A stretch of 64,000 bases of DNA from Streptomyces sp. ALI-76-A. GTDB lineage: Bacteria > Actinomycetota > Actinomycetes > Streptomycetales > Streptomycetaceae. A model generated the notes under the pieces. It had not been told where the DNA came from. It did no database searches and was given only the letters and a program-made list of their open reading frames with translations. A program made the position numbers and the translations under genes. Of the stretch, positions 12,350 through 27,381 are shown piece by piece. Each line of letters begins with the position of its first letter. Position 1 is the stretch's first letter. The stretch lies in assembly GCF_030287445.1 (NCBI RefSeq), contig NZ_JASVWB010000002.1:5394001-5458000 (forward strand), in the 5' to 3' direction.

Positions 12350-12682
12350 GCCGCGCGGTCCGGCGGGGTTCGCCGGTGGGGGTCGTACGGCCTGCTCGGC
12401 ACGGTAGCCAACGCGTGTGGCGCCTGTGAAGGTTGATGCGCGATATGCCCGATACATTTTCGTGACCTTCGGTCAGGACTTCGCGTGCCGTGGCCGAAGC
12501 GGAGTGATCTGCGCATATGTGCGTGCCTTTCGGTGGCATCGTGACCGTCCGTACTCACTCCTTGCGGCGGTGTCGGTGTCAGCACCGAGGGTGACCTCCG
12601 AGGGCGACCTGGACGTCGGCCCGCTCCGCGGCGGCCGGGTGTCGGAGGTCGTTCCGCCGGAGTTCTCGGGGCGGCGGCGGGG

Positions 12683-12704
12683 TGTCAGTGGGGAGCTCTA
12701 GACT
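12683..12704 (+). promoter_or_regulatory. RecA-NDp / PafBC-type DNA-damage promoter of pcrA
   Basis: TGTCAGTG (12683-12690), exactly eight bases, then TAGACT (12699-12704). This fits the mycobacterial RecA-independent damage promoter consensus TTGTCRGTG-N8-TAnnnT, bound by PafBC. Transcription would start near 12711, three bases before the ATG, giving an almost leaderless mRNA. Confidence 0.8.
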
Positions 12705-12713
12705 CGGAGAGCG

Positions 12714-15197
12714 ATGAGCAGCCTCTTTGATGACAGCTTCCTGGCGAACCTCCAGGCCCCGCGGGGCCACGAGGAGGAACCCCCGCCGCCCGAGGACGAT
12801 CACGTACCGGAGCCCGTACCGGACGATCTGTTCGGCGGGAAGTTCGACGTGCCACCGGACCGGGACACCCACTACCGCGACGGCGCCCCGCGCCCGGTGG
12901 TGGACCCGGCCGCGCTCCTGGAGGGGCTGAACGAGAACCAGCGGGCCGCCGTCGTGCACCACGGCACCCCGCTGCTCATCGTGGCCGGCGCCGGCTCCGG
13001 CAAGACCCGCGTGCTCACCCACCGCATCGCGCACCTGCTCGGCGAGCGGAACGTGCATCCGGGCCAGATCCTCGCGATCACCTTCACCAACAAGGCCGCG
13101 GGCGAGATGAAGGAGCGCGTCGAGCAGCTCGTCGGCCCGCGCGCGAACGCGATGTGGGTGATGACGTTCCACAGCGCGTGCGTGCGCATCCTGCGCCGGG
13201 AGAGCAAGAAGCTCGGCTTCACCTCCTCCTTCTCGATCTACGACGCCGCCGACTCCAAGCGCCTGATGGCCCTGGTCTGCCGTGATCTGGAGCTCGACCC
13301 CAAGCACTTCCCGCCGAAGTCCTTCAGCGCCAAGGTCTCCAACCTCAAGAACGAGCTGATCGACGAGGAGGACTTCGCCGCCCAGGCCGCCGACGGCTTC
13401 GAGAAGACCCTCGCCCAGGCCTACGCGATGTACCAGTCGCGACTGCGCGAGGCGAACGCCCTCGACTTCGACGACCTGATCATGACGACGGTCAACCTGC
13501 TCCGTGCCTTCCCCGACGTGGCCGAGCACTACCGCCGCCGCTTCCGGCACGTCCTCGTGGACGAGTACCAGGACACCAACCACGCCCAGTACGCCCTGGT
13601 CCGGGAGCTGGTCGGCACCTCCGAGCACCCGGTCGACGTGCCGCCGAACGACCACGACGTCCCGCCCGCGGAACTGTGCGTGGTGGGCGACGCCGACCAG
13701 TCGATCTACGCCTTCCGCGGCGCGACCATCCGCAACATCCTCCAGTTCGAGGAGGACTACCCGGACGCGACGACGATCCTGCTGGAGCAGAACTACCGCT
13801 CCACCCAGACGATCCTCACCGCCGCCAACGCGGTCATCGAGCGCAACGAGTCCCGCCGCCCCAAGAACCTGTGGACCAACGCGGGCGCGGGCGCGCGGAT
13901 CACCGGCTACGTCGCCGACACCGAGCACGACGAGGCGCAGTTCGTCGCCGAGGAGATAGACCGCCTCACCGACGCGGGCGACGCGAAGGCCGGCGACGTC
14001 GCCGTCTTCTACCGGACCAACGCTCAGTCCCGTGTCTTCGAGGAGATCTTCATCCGCGTCGGCCTGCCCTACAAGGTCGTCGGCGGTGTCCGCTTCTACG
14101 AGCGCAAGGAGGTCCGGGACGTCCTGGCCTACCTGCGGGTGCTGGCCAACCCTGAGGACTCGGTGCCGCTGCGCCGGATCCTGAACGTCCCCAAGCGGGG
14201 CATCGGCGACCGCGCCGAGGCGATGATCGACGCCCTGTCCCAGCGGGAGAAGATCTCCTTCCCGCAGGCGCTGAGGCGGGTCGACGAGGCGTACGGCATG
14301 GCCGCGCGTTCCACCAACGCCGTCAAACGGTTCAACACACTGATGGAGGACCTCCGTACGATCGTCGAGTCCGGCGCGGGCCCGGCGACGGTCCTGGAGG
14401 CGGTCCTCGAACGCACCGGCTATCTCGCCGAGTTGCAGGCCTCCACCGACCCGCAGGACGAGACGCGGATCGAGAACCTCCAGGAACTCGCGGCCGTCGC
14501 CCTGGAGTTCGAGCAGGAGTCGGGCGAGGGCGAGGAGTCCGGATCCCTCTCCGACTTCCTGGAGCGGGTCGCGCTGGTCGCCGACTCCGACCAGATCCCC
14601 GACGAGGACGAGGACGGCTCCGGAGTCATCACCCTGATGACCCTGCACACCGCCAAGGGCCTGGAGTTCCCGGTCGTCTTCCTGACCGGCATGGAGGACG
14701 GCGTCTTCCCGCACATGCGCGCCCTCGGCCAGGCCAAGGAACTGGAGGAGGAACGGCGGCTGGCGTACGTCGGCATCACGCGCGCGCGGGAGCGGCTGTA
14801 TCTGACACGGTCGTCCATGCGCAGCGCGTGGGGGCAGCCGTCGTACAACCCGCCGTCCCGCTTCCTGGAGGAGATCCCCGCGCAGCACGTGGACTGGAAG
14901 CGGACGGGTGCCATGGCACCGGTGTCCTCCGGTCCGGTGTCCGGGGTGGCGGCCTCGCTGTCGTCGTCCCGCTCCCGCTCCTCGGCGTCGGGCGCGTCGG
15001 GCTTCGCCACGCGGCGGACCTCGGAGAAGCCGACGGTGTCGCTGGCGGTGGGGGACCGGGTCACCCACGACCAGTTCGGGCTCGGCACGGTCGTCGCCGT
15101 GAAGGGCACGGGCGGCAACGCCGAGGCGACGATCGACTTCGGGGACGAGAAGCCGAAGCGGCTGCTGTTGAGGTACGCGCCGGTGGAGAAGCTGTAG
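12714..15197 (+). CDS. pcrA: ATP-dependent DNA helicase PcrA/UvrD (superfamily 1)
   Basis: 827 residues from ATG 12714. Helicase motifs are in order: Q-motif LNENQRAAV, Walker A AGAGSGKT (91-98), motif Ia TFTNKAAGEM, Walker B LVDEYQDTN, motif III GDADQSIYAFRGA, motif IV EQNYRST, motif V TLHTAKGLEFPVVFL and motif VI AYVGITRARERLY. The extreme C terminus VGDRVTHDQFGLGTVVAVKG is the PcrA Tudor-like RNA-polymerase-interacting domain. An acidic 65-residue extension precedes the core. It acts 3'-5' in repair and transcription-coupled unwinding. Its promoter matches the damage-inducible class. Confidence 0.97.
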   Translation: MSSLFDDSFLANLQAPRGHEEEPPPPEDDHVPEPVPDDLFGGKFDVPPDRDTHYRDGAPRPVVDPAALLEGLNENQRAAVVHHGTPLLIVAGAGSGKTRVLTHRIAHLLGERNVHPGQILAITFTNKAAGEMKERVEQLVGPRANAMWVMTFHSACVRILRRESKKLGFTSSFSIYDAADSKRLMALVCRDLELDPKHFPPKSFSAKVSNLKNELIDEEDFAAQAADGFEKTLAQAYAMYQSRLREANALDFDDLIMTTVNLLRAFPDVAEHYRRRFRHVLVDEYQDTNHAQYALVRELVGTSEHPVDVPPNDHDVPPAELCVVGDADQSIYAFRGATIRNILQFEEDYPDATTILLEQNYRSTQTILTAANAVIERNESRRPKNLWTNAGAGARITGYVADTEHDEAQFVAEEIDRLTDAGDAKAGDVAVFYRTNAQSRVFEEIFIRVGLPYKVVGGVRFYERKEVRDVLAYLRVLANPEDSVPLRRILNVPKRGIGDRAEAMIDALSQREKISFPQALRRVDEAYGMAARSTNAVKRFNTLMEDLRTIVESGAGPATVLEAVLERTGYLAELQASTDPQDETRIENLQELAAVALEFEQESGEGEESGSLSDFLERVALVADSDQIPDEDEDGSGVITLMTLHTAKGLEFPVVFLTGMEDGVFPHMRALGQAKELEEERRLAYVGITRARERLYLTRSSMRSAWGQPSYNPPSRFLEEIPAQHVDWKRTGAMAPVSSGPVSGVAASLSSSRSRSSASGASGFATRRTSEKPTVSLAVGDRVTHDQFGLGTVVAVKGTGGNAEATIDFGDEKPKRLLLRYAPVEKL

Positions 15198-19044: not shown

Positions 19045-20691
19045 TCAGGCGCCGGACGGTTCGGGAGGCCGCACCGTCCCCAGTTCCTCCTGCATTGCCG
19101 CGCGCAGCCGCAAGGTCGTCACCAGGCGCTGGAACGCCTCCGCCCAGTAGCCCCCGGCTCCTGGACTCGCGTCCTCCGGTTCGTCCGGGACCGCCAGCAG
19201 TCCGTCGAGGCGGCTCGCCTCGGAGGGGTCGAGGCAGCGCTCCGCCAGGCCCATCACTCCGCTGAAACTCCATGGGTAGCTCCCCGCGTCCCGTGCGATG
19301 TTGAGGGCGTCGACCACGGCCCGTCCGAGTGGCGCGGACCACGGCACCGCGCACACTCCGAGCAACTGGAACGCCTCGGACAGACCGTGGGCCGCGATGA
19401 ACCCGGCCACCCAGTCGGCCCGCTCGACGGCGTCGAGCGTGCCGAGCAGCTTGGCCCGCTCGGCCAGGGACACCGCCCCCGGCCCACCGGCCTCGGGTGC
19501 CGCGGGCGCCCCGAGCAGGGCCCTCGCCCACTCCGCGTCCCGCTGCCGTACCGCCGCCCGGCACCATGCCGCGTGCAGGTCGCCCTGCCAGTCGTCGGCC
19601 ACCGGCAGCGCCACGATCTCCCTCGGGGTACGGCCGCCGAGCCGTCCCGGCCAGGTGCGGAGCGGGGCGGCCTCCACCAGCTGGCCGAGCCACCACGACC
19701 GTTCACCCCGCCCCGCCGGGGCCTTCGCTGTCACCCCGTCGGCCTCCATGCCCGGATCGCACTCGTGCGGCGCCTCGATCAGGAGGGCCGGGGTGTCCCC
19801 GGTGTGGTCGACGGCCACACAGGCCCCGGCGCGCACCGCCATCCGCGCGGCGAGCGCCGAGCCGGGCAGCGCCGACAGCAGCTCCGCCGCCGTCGCCCGT
19901 ACGTTGCGGCTGCGGTCGGTCAGCGCCTGCTCAAGGAACGGCTCGTCGTCCGCGGCCAGGCCCGAGCGCAGGGAGTCAAGGAACATCAGCCGGTCCTCGG
20001 CCCGTTCCGTCGCCCAGGTCGTCGTGAGCAGCTCGCGCGCGGCGGCGGGCTCCCGGGCGCGGAGCGCCGCGAGCAGCGCCACCCGCTCGGCGAACAGGCC
20101 CTCCCGCCACAGCTGCCGGATCCGCTCGGCGTCCTCCGCGTGCGGCAGGGCCGCGCCCCCGCCCGGTGTCGCGCGCAGGGCGAACCGCCAGTCGGGGTTC
20201 AGCCGGGCGAGCCACACCGCGCGCGGCCCCGCGAACGCCAGCGCCGCCGGCCGCAGATCCGTACGCCCGCGGGCCGCGTCCAGCAGCGCGGGCAGCAGCT
20301 CGGGGGGAGCGGCGAAGCCGCGGGCGTTCGCCGTCGCCAGCCACTGCGGCAGCAGCTCCATCAGGTCCGGCGCCGTGCCCCGGCGGCCCCCGCCGCCCGC
20401 GCCGGGGCGGTCGGCCAGCAGCATCGCCAGCCTGCGGGCCGCCGCGGCGGGCGGCCGGGGGCGCGGGTCCCCGGCCGCCGGTTCCGGCAGCCGGGCCGCC
20501 CGCCCGGGCCGCAGGCCGGCCCGGCGGCGTACGGTCTCCGCCGCCGCCGCGTCCAGCAGGGCGAGCGGGGCCTGCCGGCCGGGCGGGCAGCCCGGTGGGG
20601 TGCGCCGCTCCGTCCCGAGCAGGGCGGTCGTGACAAGTTCCTCCCAGGCACCCGTCGCGGGCGCTTCCGCAGGAGCTGAGGTCCTGGTCAT
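19045..20691 (-). CDS. DUF5691 protein of the MoxR/VWA/SWIM cluster
   Basis: 548 residues from ATG 20691 behind GAGAGGAA. The sequence is helical, Ala/Arg/Leu-rich, with the family's opening ATGAWEELVTTALLGTERR and repeated LARLNPDWRFALR / WRFALRATPGG-type helices. No catalytic motif, signal or span is visible. DUF5691 proteins are known mainly by their position beside SWIM, MoxR, DUF5682 and VWA genes. It lies 136 bp downstream of the SWIM gene on the same strand and is presumably co-transcribed with it from the promoter at 22192-22213. A scaffold or adaptor role is inference only. Confidence 0.85.
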   Translation of the reverse strand: MTRTSAPAEAPATGAWEELVTTALLGTERRTPPGCPPGRQAPLALLDAAAAETVRRRAGLRPGRAARLPEPAAGDPRPRPPAAAARRLAMLLADRPGAGGGGRRGTAPDLMELLPQWLATANARGFAAPPELLPALLDAARGRTDLRPAALAFAGPRAVWLARLNPDWRFALRATPGGGAALPHAEDAERIRQLWREGLFAERVALLAALRAREPAAARELLTTTWATERAEDRLMFLDSLRSGLAADDEPFLEQALTDRSRNVRATAAELLSALPGSALAARMAVRAGACVAVDHTGDTPALLIEAPHECDPGMEADGVTAKAPAGRGERSWWLGQLVEAAPLRTWPGRLGGRTPREIVALPVADDWQGDLHAAWCRAAVRQRDAEWARALLGAPAAPEAGGPGAVSLAERAKLLGTLDAVERADWVAGFIAAHGLSEAFQLLGVCAVPWSAPLGRAVVDALNIARDAGSYPWSFSGVMGLAERCLDPSEASRLDGLLAVPDEPEDASPGAGGYWAEAFQRLVTTLRLRAAMQEELGTVRPPEPSGA

Positions 20692-20827
20692 ACGTTCCTC
20701 TCGGTGCCTCTTCGGGTGGTGCCTGGGAGTGGTTGAAGGGGCACGTGGTCCGGGTGTCCAGTGAGAGGGGACACATGCGTGAAATGAGGGAAGGAAGGTG
20801 GATTGCCGGACGAACGCGCAGGTCGGG

Positions 20828-22183
20828 TCAGCACAGGGCCACCGCCTCGCCGGTCCCCTGCGGCCAGGCCGTCAGCGGGGTGAAGCCGCGGTGGCCGCAC
20901 TCGCCGAAGACCGTGACCGGGGCCCCGCCGGACAGGGAGACCAGCCGCCACAGGCCCGGACGGGACCGCGCGGCGGACGTCAGCGGCAGCGCCGTGTCCC
21001 CGCCGGCGTCCACCAGCTGCCAGGAGTCGCCGTCCGGGGCCGGGACGACCCCCTCCAGCGTCACCGGCACGGCGTCCAGCCAGGGGTCCTCCCGCAGTGC
21101 CTCGCCGTACCGGGCGGCGGCCTCGGCCGGGGTCACCCCCGGCGGGCGTACCGCCGCGGGAGCGGGCGGGGCGAACCGCTCGCCCAGGGCCGCCCGCGGC
21201 TGTCCGGCACCCGGATACGCCGACACCTCCGCGTCCAGGACCAGCCCGACCGGCAGTACGAGCTCCGGCGCGCGGCCGGCGGCGCCGTAGGAGAGCAGCA
21301 GGGCCGTACGGCCCGAATCGGCGCCGTGGAGCCATATGCGGCGGATGGTCAGCCGGGCGTCCGCGGTGTCGTACTGGGCGAGGACCAGCCAGTGGTCCCG
21401 CAGCGGCGGGCCGTCCGCCGAGGCGGGCAGGCCGACACGGGAACGGACCGTCGCCGCGAGGCCCTCGGGCAACCGCTCCCGGCGCAGCCAGCCCTGGTCG
21501 AGGAGGTGGAGGAGAGCGCACTCCTCCAGCAGACGCACCGGCCAGCCCGGCCCGGACGACGGGATCGCCCCCAACTCCCGCACCCGCGCGGCCAGCCCGG
21601 GGGCCTGGGCGTCGACCATGCGGGCCGCGGTCTCCTCCCACAGCTCGTACCCCGCCTGTTCCGCGCCCGCGAGGCCGCCGCGCAGCAGGTCCGCCAGCCG
21701 CTGTTCCAGCTCCGTGGCCCCCGCGGTGATCCGCTCGGCCCGGCGCTCCGCCCGGCGCCGCGCCGCCTCCGGATCACCGGAACCGGACGGGGAACCGGCC
21801 CCCTCCGCCGTCCGCTGCTCCGCCGCGCGCTTCCTTCTCCCCTCTATCCACTCCCCGGCCCACCCGGGCGGCTCTCCGGGCGGCACCGCGCCGTCCCCGC
21901 CCGCCCAGAGCAGCAGCAGCCCCAGCGCGTGCTTGCACGGGAACTTCCGGCTCGGACAACTGCACCTGTACGCCGGGCCGGACGCGTCCGCGAGGTCCAC
22001 GACCGTCTGATACGGCCTGCCGCCACTGCCCTTGCACAGCCCCCACACCGTCCCCTCGCCGGCACTGCCCGCCTCGGACCACGGCCCGGCCGCCCCGAGT
22101 TTGCTGCCCGCTTTGCGTGACGCGGCGTCAGGAGCCAGTGACAGCACCTGGTCCGCGCTCCAGCGCACCCCCTGCTCAGTCAT
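20828..22183 (-). CDS. SWIM zinc-finger protein
   Basis: 451 residues from ATG 22183. The SWIM motif C-x-C-x6-C-x-H is intact: Cys74, Cys76, Cys83 and His85 in YRCSCPSRKFPCKHALG. The remaining ~350 residues are a helical, Arg/Glu-rich region (EAARRRAERRAERITAG...) and a beta-containing C terminus. SWIM domains bind DNA or proteins. The ATG follows a TACCTT -10 element by only eight bases and has no usable Shine-Dalgarno, so the mRNA is probably leaderless. A longer TTG start at 22213 would place the start inside the promoter and is rejected. Confidence 0.9.
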   Translation of the reverse strand: MTEQGVRWSADQVLSLAPDAASRKAGSKLGAAGPWSEAGSAGEGTVWGLCKGSGGRPYQTVVDLADASGPAYRCSCPSRKFPCKHALGLLLLWAGGDGAVPPGEPPGWAGEWIEGRRKRAAEQRTAEGAGSPSGSGDPEAARRRAERRAERITAGATELEQRLADLLRGGLAGAEQAGYELWEETAARMVDAQAPGLAARVRELGAIPSSGPGWPVRLLEECALLHLLDQGWLRRERLPEGLAATVRSRVGLPASADGPPLRDHWLVLAQYDTADARLTIRRIWLHGADSGRTALLLSYGAAGRAPELVLPVGLVLDAEVSAYPGAGQPRAALGERFAPPAPAAVRPPGVTPAEAAARYGEALREDPWLDAVPVTLEGVVPAPDGDSWQLVDAGGDTALPLTSAARSRPGLWRLVSLSGGAPVTVFGECGHRGFTPLTAWPQGTGEAVALC

Positions 22184-22191
22184 GTCTCCGA

Positions 22192-22214
22192 AGGTAGATC
22201 CCCCCACTGACAAT
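22192..22214 (-). promoter_or_regulatory. Damage-type promoter driving the SWIM-DUF5691 unit
   Basis: On the minus strand the order is TTGTCAGTG, eight bases (GGGGGATC), then TACCTT. This is a full match to the RecA-NDp/PafBC consensus TTGTCRGTG-N8-TAnnnT. The element also forms the left arm of a perfect 12-bp inverted repeat (CCCACTGACAAT at 22203-22214 against ATTGTCAGTGGG at 22250-22261). Confidence 0.82.
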
Positions 22215-22249
22215 CGGCCGTTCGAGCGCGTTCGTGCAGGTCAGAACGC

Positions 22250-22273
22250 ATTGTCAGTGGGATGGTGCACGGT
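22250..22273 (+). promoter_or_regulatory. Opposite-facing TTGTCAGTG element upstream of the MoxR gene
   Basis: ATTGTCAGTGGG (22250-22261) is the right arm of the 12-bp inverted repeat and faces the MoxR gene. Eight bases on, the -10 position reads CACGGT, which keeps only the A and final T of TAnnnT. It is therefore a good upstream element with a weak -10. Confidence 0.55.
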
Positions 22274-22316
22274 GGACACCAGATCCGAACCGGCCGAGCT
22301 GGAGGGGGACTCAGCC

Positions 22317-23447
22317 ATGACTGTGTCTGCAGCACCTACGTCCGCGCACCTGCCAGAGCAGGAGCCGACCGAGGCGTTGCGTCCGCACGCCGAGGACGCC
22401 TTCGCCGAGGAACTCGCCGCGCTCGCCGCGCAGGACGACCGTCCGCGCCCGGCCCGCTGGAAGCTGTCGCCGTGGGCCGTCGCCACCTATCTCCTCGGCG
22501 GCACCCTGCCGGACGGCACGGTGATCACGCCGAAGTACGTCGGCCCGCGCCGCATCGTCGAGGTCGCCGTCACCACCCTCGCCACCGACCGCGCCCTGCT
22601 CCTGCTCGGTGTGCCCGGCACCGCGAAGACCTGGGTGTCCGAGCACCTGGCCGCCGCGGTCAGCGGCGACTCCACCCTGCTGGTGCAGGGCACCGCCGGC
22701 ACCCCGGAGGAGGCCATCCGGTACGGCTGGAACTACGCGCAGCTGCTCGCCCACGGTCCCAGCCGGGACGCCCTGGTCCCCAGCCCCGTCATGCGGGCGA
22801 TGGCCGAGGGAATGACGGCCCGCGTCGAGGAACTGACCCGTATCCCGGCCGACGTCCAGGACACGCTCATCACCATCCTGTCGGAGAAGACGCTGCCGAT
22901 ACCGGAGCTGGGCCAGGAGGTGCAGGCGGTCCGCGGGTTCAACCTGATCGCGACGGCCAACGACCGCGACCGCGGGGTCAACGACCTGTCCAGCGCCCTG
23001 CGCCGCCGCTTCAACACGGTGGTGCTGCCGCTGCCGGAGAGCGTCCAGGCCGAGGTCGACATCGTCTCCCGGCGCGTCGACCAGCTCGGCCGTTCCCTCG
23101 ACCTGCCGGCCGCGCCCGACGGCATCGACGAGATCCGCCGCGTGGTGACCGTCTTCCGCGAGCTGCGCGACGGCGTCACGTCCGACGGCCGCACCAAGCT
23201 GAAGTCGCCCAGCGGCACCCTGTCGACGGCGGAGGCGATCTCCGTCGTCACCGGCGGCCTCGCCCTGGCCGCGCACTTCGGCGACGGCGTGCTGCGGGCC
23301 GGCGATGTCGCCGCGGGCATCCTCGGCGCCGTCGTCCGCGACCCCGCGTCCGACCGGGTCGTGTGGCAGGAGTACCTGGAGGCGGTCGTCCGCGAGCGCG
23401 AGGGCTGGACGGACTTCTACCGGGCCTGCCGGGAGGTGAGCGCGTGA
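22317..23447 (+). CDS. MoxR-family AAA+ ATPase
   Basis: 376 residues from ATG 22317 behind GGAGGGGGA. Walker A is GVPGTAKT (98-105, Lys104). The acidic Walker B equivalent lies in VEELTRIPADVQDTL, sensor 1 in LIATANDRDRG and the arginine-finger region in SSALRRRFNTVVLPLPES. A ~90-residue N-terminal extension precedes the AAA core. MoxR ATPases typically work with a VWA-domain partner to remodel or load metal into a client, and the VWA gene is four genes on (26095). Together with DUF5682 and the micro-ORF it forms a tight plus-strand operon. Confidence 0.92.
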   Translation: MTVSAAPTSAHLPEQEPTEALRPHAEDAFAEELAALAAQDDRPRPARWKLSPWAVATYLLGGTLPDGTVITPKYVGPRRIVEVAVTTLATDRALLLLGVPGTAKTWVSEHLAAAVSGDSTLLVQGTAGTPEEAIRYGWNYAQLLAHGPSRDALVPSPVMRAMAEGMTARVEELTRIPADVQDTLITILSEKTLPIPELGQEVQAVRGFNLIATANDRDRGVNDLSSALRRRFNTVVLPLPESVQAEVDIVSRRVDQLGRSLDLPAAPDGIDEIRRVVTVFRELRDGVTSDGRTKLKSPSGTLSTAEAISVVTGGLALAAHFGDGVLRAGDVAAGILGAVVRDPASDRVVWQEYLEAVVREREGWTDFYRACREVSA

Positions 23448-23528
23448 GCGGCGGCGGGTGCGCGGCGCCGGGCGGCGCGCGGGGTGAGCGGCCCGGGGCA
23501 TCTCCGGGCGGTCCGGGAGGGGGACAGG

Positions 23529-25946
23529 GTGACAGGCGCTGACGAGTCCGGGAGCGGGTGGCCCGGGGAGGGACCGCTGCTGCTCGGGGTGCGGCACCAC
23601 GGACCGGGTTCCGCGCGGGCCGTGCGGGCGGCGCTGAGCGCGGCCCGGCCGCGGGTGGTCCTGATCGAGGGGCCGCCCGAGGCGGACGCGCTGATCCCGC
23701 TGGCCGCCGACGAGGACATGCGGCCGCCGGTCGCCCTGCTCGCCCACGCGGTGGACGAGCCCGGCCGGTCGGCGTTCTGGCCGATGGCCGAGTTCTCGCC
23801 GGAGTGGGTCGCGATCCGCTGGGCCGTGGAGCAGGACGTCCCGGCCCACTTCATCGACCTGCCGGCCACCCACACGCTGGCCTGGATGAGGGACGGGGAG
23901 AAGGACGCCGAGGCGGAGAAGAGCGAGCCTGAGGCCGGGGGTGAGCAGGCCGAGGGGGAGAAGGCCGGGCAGGAGGCGGCCGGGTCGGACGCCGGGGCCA
24001 ACATCCGCGTCGACCCGCTGGCCGTGCTCGCCGAGGCCGCCGGCTACGACGATCCCGAGCGCTGGTGGGAGGACGTCGTCGAGCACCGGGGGCCGGGCGA
24101 CGGGGACGCCTTCGCCCCGTTCGTCGCGCTCGAGGAGGCCATGGGGGCGCTGCGGGACACGTACGGCAGCGGCGGGCATGACCGGGACCTCGTCCGTGAG
24201 GCGTTCATGCGCCTCCAGGTGCGGGACGCGCGACGCCGGTACGGGGACGGCGTCGCGGTGGTCTGCGGGGCCTGGCACGTGCCCGCGTTGCGGCACCGGA
24301 CCACCGTCGCCGCCGACAGGGCACTGCTCAAGGGACTGCCCAAGGTCAAGACGGACATGACCTGGGTGCCGTGGACGTACCGCAGGCTGTCCCGGCGCAG
24401 CGGATACGGCGCGGGCATCGAGTCACCGGGCTGGTACGGACATTTGTTCGGCGCACCGGACCGTCCGGTCGAGCGGTGGCTGACCAGGGTGGCGGGGCTG
24501 CTGCGGCAGGAGGACCGGCTCGTGTCCTCGGCGCACGTCATCGAGGCGGTGCGGCTGGCCGAGACCCTCGCGGTGATGCGCGGCCGTCCGCTGCCCGGTC
24601 TGAGCGAGACGACCGACGCCGTGCGGGCGGTGATGTGCGACGGCTCGGACGTGCCACTGGCGCTGGTGCACGACCGGCTCGTCGTGGGAGACGTGCTCGG
24701 CGAGGTGCCGGCCGCCGCGCCGGCGGTGCCGTTGCAGCGGGACCTCGACCGCACCCAGCGCAGACTGCGGCTCAGGCCGGAGGCGCTGGAGCGCGAGCTG
24801 GAACTCGACCTGCGCAAGGACACCGACGCCGAACGCAGCAGGCTGCTGCACCGGCTGCGGCTGCTCGGTGTGGCGTGGGGCGAACCGGCCTCCTCGCGCG
24901 GCAGCACGGGCACCTTCCGGGAGACCTGGCGGCTCAGGTGGGAGCCGGAGCTGGCCGTGCGGGTCGCCGAGGCCGGGGTGTGGGGCACGACCGTGCTCGG
25001 CGCCGCGACCGCCAAGGCCGAGTCCGACGCGGCCGGCGCCCAGGGACTCGCCGACGTCACGGCCCTGGCGGAGCACTGCCTGCTGGCCGACCTGCCGGAC
25101 GCGCTCCCCACCGTGATGCGGATCCTCGCCGACCGGGCGGCCCTCGACGCCGACGTCGGCCACCTCGCCCAGGCCCTGCCCGCCCTGGTCCGCTCCCTGC
25201 GCTACGGCGACGTACGGGGCACCGACACGGCGGCGTTGACGGAGGTCGCCGCGGGCCTCGCGGAGCGGATCTTCGTCGGCCTGCCCCCGGCCTGCACCGC
25301 GCTCGACCCGGACGCGGCCGAGGAGATGCGCCGCCACCTCGACGCGGTGCACGGGGCGGTGGGACTCCTGGCCGGCGCCGCCCCGCCGGCCCACGGCGAC
25401 CTGCGGGGGCGCTGGCACACGGTGCTCGGCGTGCTGTCCGGGCGGGACACCGTGCCCGGGGTGATCCGCGGGCGCGCGGTACGGCTGCTGCTGGACAGCG
25501 GGGAACTGGCTCAGGACGAGGCGGCCCGGCTCATGGGACTCGTGCTGTCGCCGGGCACCCCGCCGGGGGACGCGGCCGCGTGGATCGAGGGCTTCGTCGG
25601 CGGCGGCTCCGGCGGCGGGATGCTCCTGGTGCACGACGAGCGGCTGCTCGGGCTGGTCGACGCCTGGCTGACCGGCGTGCCGGCCGAGGCGTTCACCGAC
25701 GTCCTGCCCCTGCTGCGACGCACGTTCTCGGCGTACGAGGCGGGTGTGCGCCGGACACTCGGCGAACTGGTCCGGCGTGGTCCGGGGCAGCGGGGGAACA
25801 CGACGGCGACCGGATCCGGCATTCCCGGCTTCGCACCCGACCTCGACGGCGAGCGCGCGGACGCCGTGCTGCCCGTCGTGCGGTTGCTGCTGGGCCTGGA
25901 CGGGCCGGAAGAGACCGCGGGCAACGATCTGGTGGGGGTGGCGTGA
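23529..25946 (+). CDS. DUF5682 protein of the MoxR/VWA cluster
   Basis: 805 residues from GTG 23529, chosen because GGAGGGGGACAGG lies directly upstream; a GTG at 23484 would add 15 residues. The family signature is at the N terminus: LLLGVRHHGPGSARAVRAAL, then VVLIEGPPEADALIPLA and PVALLAHAVDEPGRSAFWPMAEFSPEWVAIRWA. This part resembles TraB/ChaN-like folds with a conserved HHGPGS. A low-complexity acidic insert spans about 125-165. The rest is helical repeat-like. The function is unknown; conserved His, Glu and Asp positions suggest an enzymatic N-terminal domain. Its stop overlaps the next start (TGATG). Confidence 0.88.
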   Translation: MTGADESGSGWPGEGPLLLGVRHHGPGSARAVRAALSAARPRVVLIEGPPEADALIPLAADEDMRPPVALLAHAVDEPGRSAFWPMAEFSPEWVAIRWAVEQDVPAHFIDLPATHTLAWMRDGEKDAEAEKSEPEAGGEQAEGEKAGQEAAGSDAGANIRVDPLAVLAEAAGYDDPERWWEDVVEHRGPGDGDAFAPFVALEEAMGALRDTYGSGGHDRDLVREAFMRLQVRDARRRYGDGVAVVCGAWHVPALRHRTTVAADRALLKGLPKVKTDMTWVPWTYRRLSRRSGYGAGIESPGWYGHLFGAPDRPVERWLTRVAGLLRQEDRLVSSAHVIEAVRLAETLAVMRGRPLPGLSETTDAVRAVMCDGSDVPLALVHDRLVVGDVLGEVPAAAPAVPLQRDLDRTQRRLRLRPEALERELELDLRKDTDAERSRLLHRLRLLGVAWGEPASSRGSTGTFRETWRLRWEPELAVRVAEAGVWGTTVLGAATAKAESDAAGAQGLADVTALAEHCLLADLPDALPTVMRILADRAALDADVGHLAQALPALVRSLRYGDVRGTDTAALTEVAAGLAERIFVGLPPACTALDPDAAEEMRRHLDAVHGAVGLLAGAAPPAHGDLRGRWHTVLGVLSGRDTVPGVIRGRAVRLLLDSGELAQDEAARLMGLVLSPGTPPGDAAAWIEGFVGGGSGGGMLLVHDERLLGLVDAWLTGVPAEAFTDVLPLLRRTFSAYEAGVRRTLGELVRRGPGQRGNTTATGSGIPGFAPDLDGERADAVLPVVRLLLGLDGPEETAGNDLVGVA

Positions 25947-26098
25947 TGACGACCGACTGTCTGAGTGAGCCGAGAGAGCGGACCGAAACGGCGGACACCG
26001 CCGGGGAGGGGCACCGGGCGCACGAGGCGGAGCGCCCGGCGACGACCGTCCCGGTGATGCCGCTCTGGGAACGGCTGCACACGGGGGTGCGCGGATGA
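25946..26098 (+). CDS. 50-residue micro-ORF coupled between DUF5682 and VWA genes
   Basis: ATG 25946-25948 overlaps the DUF5682 stop (TGATG) and its own TGA overlaps the VWA start (ATGA), so it is chained on both sides and hard to explain as chance. The peptide is hydrophilic and Glu/Arg/Thr-rich, begins MTTDCLSEPRERTE and ends with a more ordered VPVMPLWERLHTGVRG. There is no span, signal or zinc motif beyond a single Cys5. It may be a translational coupler or a small subunit of the complex. I do not recognise a family. Confidence 0.6.
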   Translation: MTTDCLSEPRERTETADTAGEGHRAHEAERPATTVPVMPLWERLHTGVRG

Positions 26099-27381
26099 CC
26101 GGACCAGGGACGACCGGGCCAGGGACGACCGGGCCAGGGACGACCGGGCCAGGGACGACGGGACCAGGGACGACGGCCGGGCCGGAGGCGGGGCCGGGGG
26201 CGGTCACCGGATCCCGGGTGACGGCCGAGTCGGTGGACTCGGGGCGGGAGCGGCTGCGGCGCTGGCGGCTCGTGCTCGGTGGTGACACGGCGGACGGCAC
26301 CGGCTGCGCGCTCTCCGGAAAGGACGCCGCGATGGACGGGGCGCTCACCGCGCTCTACGGGAAGGGGGACAAACCGCCGGCCGGGCGGGACCGCGCGGCG
26401 GGGCTCGGGGCGTCGGCGCCGTCCGTGGCGCGCTGGCTCGGGGACATCCGGACGTACTTCCCGTCCTCCGTCGTCCAGGTGATGCAGCGCGACGCCATCG
26501 ACCGGCTCGGACTGTCCACGCTGCTGCTGGAGCCGGAGATGCTGGAGGCGGTGGAAGCCGACGTGCATCTCGTCGGCACGCTGCTCTCCCTCAACAAGGC
26601 CATGCCGGAGACCACGAAGGAGACGGCGCGCAAGGTCGTCCGCAAGGTCGTCGAGGACCTGGAGAAGCGGCTCGCCACCCGTACCCGGGCCACCCTCACC
26701 GGTGCCCTCGACCGCAGTGCCCGGATCAACCGGCCGCGCCACCACGACATCGACTGGAACCGCACCGTCGCGGCCAACCTCAAGCACTACCTGCCGGAAT
26801 ACCGGACGATCGTGCCGGAGCGGCTCATCGGATACGGGCGCGCGTCCCGGTCGGTGAAGAAGGACGTCATCCTCTGCATCGACCAGTCGGGGTCGATGGC
26901 GGCGTCCGTCGTCTACGCGTCCGTGTTCGGGGCCGTGCTGGCGTCGATGCGGTCGATCGACACGCGTCTCGTCGTCTTCGACACCGCCGTCGTCGACCTC
27001 ACCGACCAGCTCGACGACCCGGTCGACGTGCTGTTCGGCACGCAGCTCGGCGGCGGTACGGACATCAACCGGGCGCTCGCCTACTGCCAGTCGCAGATCA
27101 CCCGGCCCGCCGAGACGGTGGTCGTGCTGATCAGCGACCTCTACGAAGGGGGCATACGGCGGGAGATGCTCAAGCGGGTCGCGGCGATGAAGGCCTCGGG
27201 GGTGCAGTTCGTGACGCTGCTCGCGCTGTCCGACGAAGGGGCGCCCGCCTACGACCGGGAGCACGCGGCCGCGCTCGCCGCCCTGGGCGCACCGGCGTTC
27301 GCCTGCACCCCCGACCTGTTCCCGGAGGTGATGGCGGCGGCGATCGAGAAGCGGCCGCTGCCGATACCGGAGACCGCGTGA
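26095..27381 (+). CDS. VWA-domain protein, MoxR partner
   Basis: 428 residues from ATG 26095. Five GPGTT repeats open the protein, then a helical region (50-250) with SVARWLGDIRTYFPSSVVQVMQ. The VWA domain starts near 256, with the MIDAS DQSGS (263-267), the threonine in GGGTDINRAL and the aspartate in VLISDLYEGG, so metal binding should be intact. VWA partners of MoxR ATPases bind the client or metal cofactor. It is the last gene of the plus-strand operon and is translationally coupled to the micro-ORF. Confidence 0.92.
   Translation: MTGPGTTGPGTTGPGTTGPGTTGPGTTAGPEAGPGAVTGSRVTAESVDSGRERLRRWRLVLGGDTADGTGCALSGKDAAMDGALTALYGKGDKPPAGRDRAAGLGASAPSVARWLGDIRTYFPSSVVQVMQRDAIDRLGLSTLLLEPEMLEAVEADVHLVGTLLSLNKAMPETTKETARKVVRKVVEDLEKRLATRTRATLTGALDRSARINRPRHHDIDWNRTVAANLKHYLPEYRTIVPERLIGYGRASRSVKKDVILCIDQSGSMAASVVYASVFGAVLASMRSIDTRLVVFDTAVVDLTDQLDDPVDVLFGTQLGGGTDINRALAYCQSQITRPAETVVVLISDLYEGGIRREMLKRVAAMKASGVQFVTLLALSDEGAPAYDREHAAALAALGAPAFACTPDLFPEVMAAAIEKRPLPIPETA
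26098..26172. repeat. 15-bp in-frame tandem repeat at the VWA gene start
   Basis: Five copies of a 15-bp unit (CCGGGCCAGGGACGA and variants) encode GPGTT five times right after the VWA start codon. The unit is a multiple of three, so copy changes keep the frame. Confidence 0.85.

Follow-up and report, generated by a model that had tools for sequence, protein, structure and literature searches.

A 64,000-nucleotide stretch of the Streptomyces sp. ALI-76-A genome (contig NZ_JASVWB010000002.1, positions 5,394,001 to 5,458,000; hereafter the window) carries, at window positions 19045..27381, two operons that diverge from a single short control region. The leftward operon encodes a SWIM zinc protein and a DUF5691 protein, and the rightward one a MoxR-type AAA+ ATPase, a DUF5682 protein and a VWA protein. 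This uncharacterised ATPase cluster is nearly universal in Streptomyces and is placed by promoter motif inside a set of repair genes, alongside sister loci encoding DUF4132 and WGR proteins. Its features are as follows.

19045..20691, (-) strand: DUF5691 protein, 548 amino acids (aa), second gene of the leftward operon (Pfam PF18944, E 2e-173)
20828..22183, (-) strand: SWIM zinc protein, 451 aa, first gene of the leftward operon (Pfam PF04434, E 3e-6)
22191..22213, (-) strand: RecA-NDp/PafBC-type promoter of SWIM-DUF5691, exact match to TTGTCRGTG-N8-TANNNT
22237..22242, (+) strand: CAGGTC element, within the spacer that separates the promoter motifs
22251..22273, (+) strand: RecA-NDp/PafBC-type promoter of MoxR-DUF5682-VWA, one mismatch (CA for TA at -10)
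22317..23447, (+) strand: MoxR-type AAA+ ATPase, 376 aa (Pfam AAA_5, E 4e-37)
23529..25946, (+) strand: DUF5682 protein, 805 aa (Pfam PF18934, 1011 bits)
25946..26098, (+) strand: 50-codon open reading frame (ORF) overlapping both neighbours, without a Pfam family
26095..27381, (+) strand: VWA_CoxE protein, 428 aa, MIDAS-bearing, with a repeat-rich N-terminus (Pfam PF05762, E 5e-62)

All six ORFs that the first-pass annotation had assigned to one control region were confirmed there, together with the sequence signatures it had listed: an intact SWIM motif (CSCPSRKFPCKH, residue 74), the MoxR Walker A (GVPGTAKT, residue 98), the VWA MIDAS (DQSGS at residue 263, plus GGGTD at 319) and overlapping starts, the 50-codon ORF sharing one to four bases with the DUF5682 gene on one side and with the VWA gene on the other. 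On sequence grounds the SWIM start was moved from an upstream TTG to the ATG at 22183, because the TTG falls within the SWIM promoter, and the MoxR start was assigned to the ATG at 22317. For DUF5682 the GTG at 23529 is probably the start rather than 23484, since a G-rich ribosome site precedes it. The VWA gene opens with tandem repeats (26095-26180) encoding TGPGT units, probably a disordered tail.

The implied conservation of all six genes had to be reduced to five. In a set of 44 clusters (the window, 3 others and 40 fetched) the same five genes recur in 43, whereas the motif that ends the 50-codon ORF occurs in 1/44, the window alone, and many other clusters have directly overlapping DUF5682 and VWA frames. 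The small ORF is real, yet apparently private to the window genome.

Damage-type promoters of the divergent operons

The proposal of damage-type promoters was borne out by a RecA-NDp/PafBC-type site in each direction. The pattern TTGTCRGTG-N8-TANNNT lies at start-site distance on both sides, and the cluster thus belongs by motif to the RecA-NDp/PafBC set. The consensus letters are reportedly those of Gamulin 2004. Across the 9.69-Mb window genome the pattern has 31 exact matches, one of them the SWIM-side site, and its reversed form has 0; within the window alone it is not enriched, 10 sites being found at up to three mismatches and 5.5 expected. The divergent pair CACYGACAA-N35..65-TTGTCRGTG occurs in 187/295 genomes of the genus, against 2/295 for the reversed control. 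These two comparisons place the damage-type promoters beyond chance, and regulation by them is well supported at the sequence level.

The scan reveals a repair-gene set of RecA-NDp/PafBC type in Streptomyces genomes. Loci are available for 30 of the sites; ten of the proteins encoded there, picked for their repair-like look, were given to NCBIfam, and two more were named behind the remaining 20 sites (the SWIM protein itself, L023, and a weak VWA_2 match, L002). NCBIfam cut-offs were passed by RecA, UvrB, RuvC, DnaX and ribosomal protein S6; UvrA and the RarA-like, Hel308-like, UvrD/PcrA-like and DinG/YoaA-like proteins matched strongly without reaching theirs, most of these proteins being truncated where the locus ends. 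The VWA_2 match, also below cut-off, is the product of ORF 1522-2622 of L002, which an exact motif precedes. A tandem pair of WYL genes, which may be pafBC, sits some 3 kb away from the Hel308-like site, and in the window itself, at 12682-15197, a RecA-NDp-like site (12682, one mismatch) directly precedes a PcrA/UvrD helicase gene.

The ATG of the SWIM gene stands seven bases past the -10, and the same distance to an ATG or GTG is found behind the recA, dnaX and uvrB sites, which suggests that the SWIM-DUF5691 mRNA is probably leaderless.

Conservation of the sites was assessed in the 44 clusters with the first -10 base left free in motif scoring. The motif is present on the MoxR side in 41, on the SWIM side in 41, on both in 38 and on at least one in all 44. 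Constancy of the nine core letters (one of them R) is no evidence, because the search pattern fixes them; the informative part is the presence of the motif and the bases kept outside the pattern. With few exceptions the spacer and -10 on the MoxR side are GTGGTGCA, CA stands at the -10 in 40/41 MoxR-side sites, and the SWIM ATG follows the -10 by seven bases in 37/41 SWIM-side sites. A second set of 80 named loci, which may share species with the first, left 61 Streptomyces clusters once 13 from other genera or unassigned and 6 without SWIM or MoxR on the contig were set aside; here the motif occurs on the MoxR side in 59, on the SWIM side in 55, on both in 55 and on neither in 2 (L217, L225). 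Judged by coordinates, the divergent pair lies less than 2 kb upstream of DUF5682 in all of the approximately 20 genomes compared by eye, and a few genomes (e.g. G380, G374, G270) hold a further pair elsewhere.

Outside Streptomyces both motifs were found in Streptantibioticus, the MoxR-side motif in two Kitasatospora and the SWIM-side motif in one Streptacidiphilus. Where the genes run collinearly (SWIM-DUF5691-MoxR-DUF5682-VWA), motif-like sites precede SWIM in Streptosporangium, two Nonomuraea, Catellatospora and Catenulispora, with scores attained by 0.2-1.1% of random windows from the same locus. Collinear locus L053 has a partial match (1.0% of random windows), and no motif-like site was found before SWIM in collinear L223, L227, L238, L050, L051, L052 and L054.

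The distance between the two motifs is itself patterned. In 14/96 pairs it measures 566-719 bp, and the four long gaps inspected (L128, L133, L139, L155) hold an additional ORF, some 140-150 codons long, whose start resembles that of a lipoprotein, both operons keeping their own motif; a rough cut of this ORF from L133 had no Pfam match. The 73 gaps below 80 bp fall into classes of 25-28 (6 gaps), 36-38 (40), 48-49 (15) and 60-61 bp (12), with none in between and steps of about 12 bp, in counts that ignore shared ancestry. CAGGTC occurs in 49 of these 73 short spacers, compared with 1.4% in shuffled sequence, and in 44 of the 49 it lies 13-14 bp from the MoxR motif. It was found in 0/30 other damage sites, and its extended form is not specific genome-wide; possibly it acts as a second operator.

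Distribution and sister loci

DUF5682 is present in 287/295 genomes of the genus, compared with 10/149 across the phylum, and DUF5691 in 21/22 Streptomyces listed and 50/246 genomes of the class. The B12-binding neighbour (18482) is kept in 59 of the 65 named loci that exceed 20.5 kb, and the neighbours resembling succinyl-CoA ligase (31396, 32596) are kept in 58. This distribution bears on the second half of the function first suggested, DNA-damage processing or defence. A MoxR-VWA conflict or anti-phage system, related to the VMAP/iSTAND ternary systems and damage-induced as a proxy of infection, would fit the layout of MoxR, VWA and a third constant protein described in the available part of PMC7159879, the weak bpMoxR match of the ATPase (23.6 bits, under the 27-bit cut-off), its weak IetA match and the plasmid location of some relatives, E. 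coli ones among them, with a type I restriction system beside one of the relatives. PADLOC-DB 2.0.0 gave no significant match, the weak IetA match (E 0.013 and 0.029) being to the ATPase only. A system near-fixed in the genus, with conserved neighbours and the same five genes from cluster to cluster, argues against defence, as does the lack of VWA relatives among 135 viral stretches matching a pattern. The VWA domain extends to residue 412 of 428, with nothing C-terminal of it in Pfam and hence no variable effector domain there, while such effectors mark the conflict systems in the part of PMC7159879 covered; the words 'SWIM' and 'WGR' are absent from the main text of that source. In the six proteins no Pfam family corresponding to VMAP-C, iSTAND, FtsH or beta-propeller was found (E 0.001), although VMAP-C may lack a Pfam model. 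Given the conserved neighbours, the absence of a copy from those viral stretches and the missing variable effectors, a conflict system is distinctly unlikely. The damage-response half of the suggestion has strong support at the sequence level, from conserved promoters of the type found before recA, uvrB, ruvC, dnaX and uvrA; the defence half is not supported.

Relatives of the cluster extend well beyond actinobacteria. In E. coli K-12, yehL, yehM and yehP match MoxR (39% identity), DUF5682 (27%) and VWA (36%) in the same order and are followed by yehQ, a SWIM protein whose likeness to that of the window is weak and limited to the SWIM region. With MoxR, DUF5682, VWA and SWIM together, the gene content is of yehLMPQ type, and by sequence E. 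coli yehLMPQ is a distant counterpart of the cluster. Near it lie yehI (DUF4132) and yehF (WGR); no DUF5691 match was found at the yeh locus, and no clear SOS box for the yeh cluster. A LexA-like site with one mismatch stands nine bases upstream of yehF (L046:1450-1465), one of ten such sites in 25 kb where 7.6 are expected by chance. According to PMC8533742, the WGR protein MolR has been described as LexA-regulated.

Gene sets of type A occur in Deinococcus and Rhizobium, and those of type B (yeh-like, with DUF4132) in Sinorhizobium and Iodobacter and also in some Streptomyces; the genome of the window has no DUF4132. The Iodobacter type B cluster, on a plasmid (L242), adjoins a type I restriction-modification system and transposase genes. 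An exact damage motif lies just upstream of DUF4132 in 5/5 Streptomyces type B loci (L058 and L246-L249, L249 holding the first gene only), and the L058 DUF4132 protein also carries a WGR domain (Pfam). Among lone DUF4132 loci (L250-L258) the motif is at the predicted start or within about 420 bp of it in 8/9; both lone proteins scanned also have a DUF7737 domain. In a third type (DUF4132, a large protein, an AAA protein and a DUF5682-VWA fusion) the motif is present in 4/9, L057 being counted by genome coordinates, and absent from the S. atratus copy (L243). DUF4132/WGR genes of Deinococcus radiodurans rise upon depletion of the damage repressor DdrO, a rise that the authors, in the available text, do not tie to IrrE (PMC8533742).

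Proposed function and comparison with known systems

The MoxR-type AAA+ ATPase with its Walker A shares an operon with a VWA protein with a MIDAS, as in MoxR-VWA chaperone pairs; its nearest solved ATPases are midasin (best) and NorQ, and the VWA protein matches ViaA weakly. DUF5682 is modelled as an alpha/beta N-domain followed by a helical solenoid. Invariant His, Glu, Arg-Glu and His residues of the N-domain follow the order GxxH, E, R-E, GxxH, which we take to be the residue motif of Tiki/TraB/ChaN hydrolases; matches to that clan are weak (E 0.07-0.12; hhalign probability 0.25%), and Foldseek gave no match at 0.001. The SWIM protein comprises the SWIM domain, a predicted helical middle and predicted C-terminal tandem OB folds, RPA-like, these folds with moderate scores. 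SWIM-DUF5691 fusions occur in Actinoplanes (L238), in G050 (L054) and, by position, in Hymenobacter.

The reading we favour, with a probability of about one half, is that the cluster codes for an accessory machine serving the LexA-independent (RecA-NDp/PafBC-type) damage response, in which MoxR-VWA remodels, DUF5682 is its partner and SWIM-DUF5691 provides targeting. We infer induction, PafBC dependence, complex formation, nucleic-acid binding and hydrolase activity along the following lines. DNA damage would switch both divergent promoters on together, the leftward one producing SWIM and DUF5691 from a probably leaderless mRNA and the rightward one MoxR, DUF5682 and VWA. The MoxR ring and its VWA adaptor, bearing the MIDAS, would work as a remodelling pair, powered by ATP and of the NorQ/midasin kind, with DUF5682 as a dedicated partner carrying a probable metal-dependent hydrolase domain on its solenoid. 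The zinc SWIM domain and tandem OB folds would bind single-stranded or damaged nucleic acid, bringing the machine to its target.

The same proteins could be read in two other ways. In metal-centre assembly of the NorQD/CbbQO/CoxDE kind, MoxR-VWA would mature a DUF5682 enzyme of non-DNA chemistry, its damage control reflecting oxidative stress; the CoxE-like VWA, NorQ among the solved matches of MoxR and the invariant His/Glu residues suit this alternative, which leaves unexplained both the SWIM/OB protein and a promoter type common to repair genes and WGR-bearing sister loci, and we hold it to be rather improbable. Somewhat more doubtful still is an RNA- or ribosome-directed stress machine, a midasin-like ribonucleoprotein remodeller with RNA-binding OB folds induced with the damage regulon. 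Midasin as best match, OB matches that include translation factors and tRNA synthetases, and rpsF behind a damage site all point that way, but no RNA-specific domain was found, and among the two-OB matches those that align over the most residues are to single-stranded-DNA or HIN proteins.

Two observations set limits to the reading as an accessory damage-response machine. Damage boxes were looked for and not found at the E. coli, Deinococcus taeanensis, Rhizobium and Nocardia copies, and an initial search in S. venezuelae did not find the PafBC motif conserved, according to the part of PMC9380542 available; PafBC homologues are present in Streptomyces, and this 2022 study leaves open whether a damage response independent of LexA exists there. 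The motif counts obtained from other Streptomyces disagree with that initial search. The RecA-NDp motif is named, conserved in actinobacteria and linked to PafBC in the covered parts of PMC6789036 and PMC8223512, and S. coelicolor SCO6735, which has such a promoter, is reported in PMC5087735 to rise 5-fold after ultraviolet irradiation, its deletion giving no survival phenotype.

A more specific version is speculative: the machine may find single-stranded gaps through its RPA-like OB folds and spend ATP to strip or cut proteins off damaged DNA by means of a Tiki-type metalloprotease domain, removing DNA-protein crosslinks or stalled complexes. The DUF4132-WGR sisters would be targeted by a PARP-type break-sensing domain, and the Deinococcus set would fall into the same class, as would E. 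coli yehLMPQ. Should the function match the regulation, families known from E. coli (yeh) to Deinococcus would acquire a part in tolerance of DNA damage, and DUF5682, DUF5691 and DUF4132 would share a context.

Among known systems, the MoxR-VWA ternary conflict systems share the core and a third constant protein with the cluster, which differs from them (PMC7159879) in having no variable effectors, no VMAP/STAND in Pfam, a constant gene set and a fixed chromosomal site. The E. coli yeh set lies all on one strand, with DUF4132 nearby instead of DUF5691. With the RecA-NDp/PafBC regulon of mycobacteria and S. coelicolor (SCO6735) the cluster has its promoter type in common and differs in its divergent double promoter, and it goes unmentioned in the literature of that regulon as far as covered. 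In the chaperone pairs NorQD, CbbQO and RavA-ViaA, and in midasin, a MoxR AAA+ and a MIDAS-bearing VWA come from one operon, as here; the cluster adds to them DUF5682, SWIM and DUF5691 partners and damage-type promoters.

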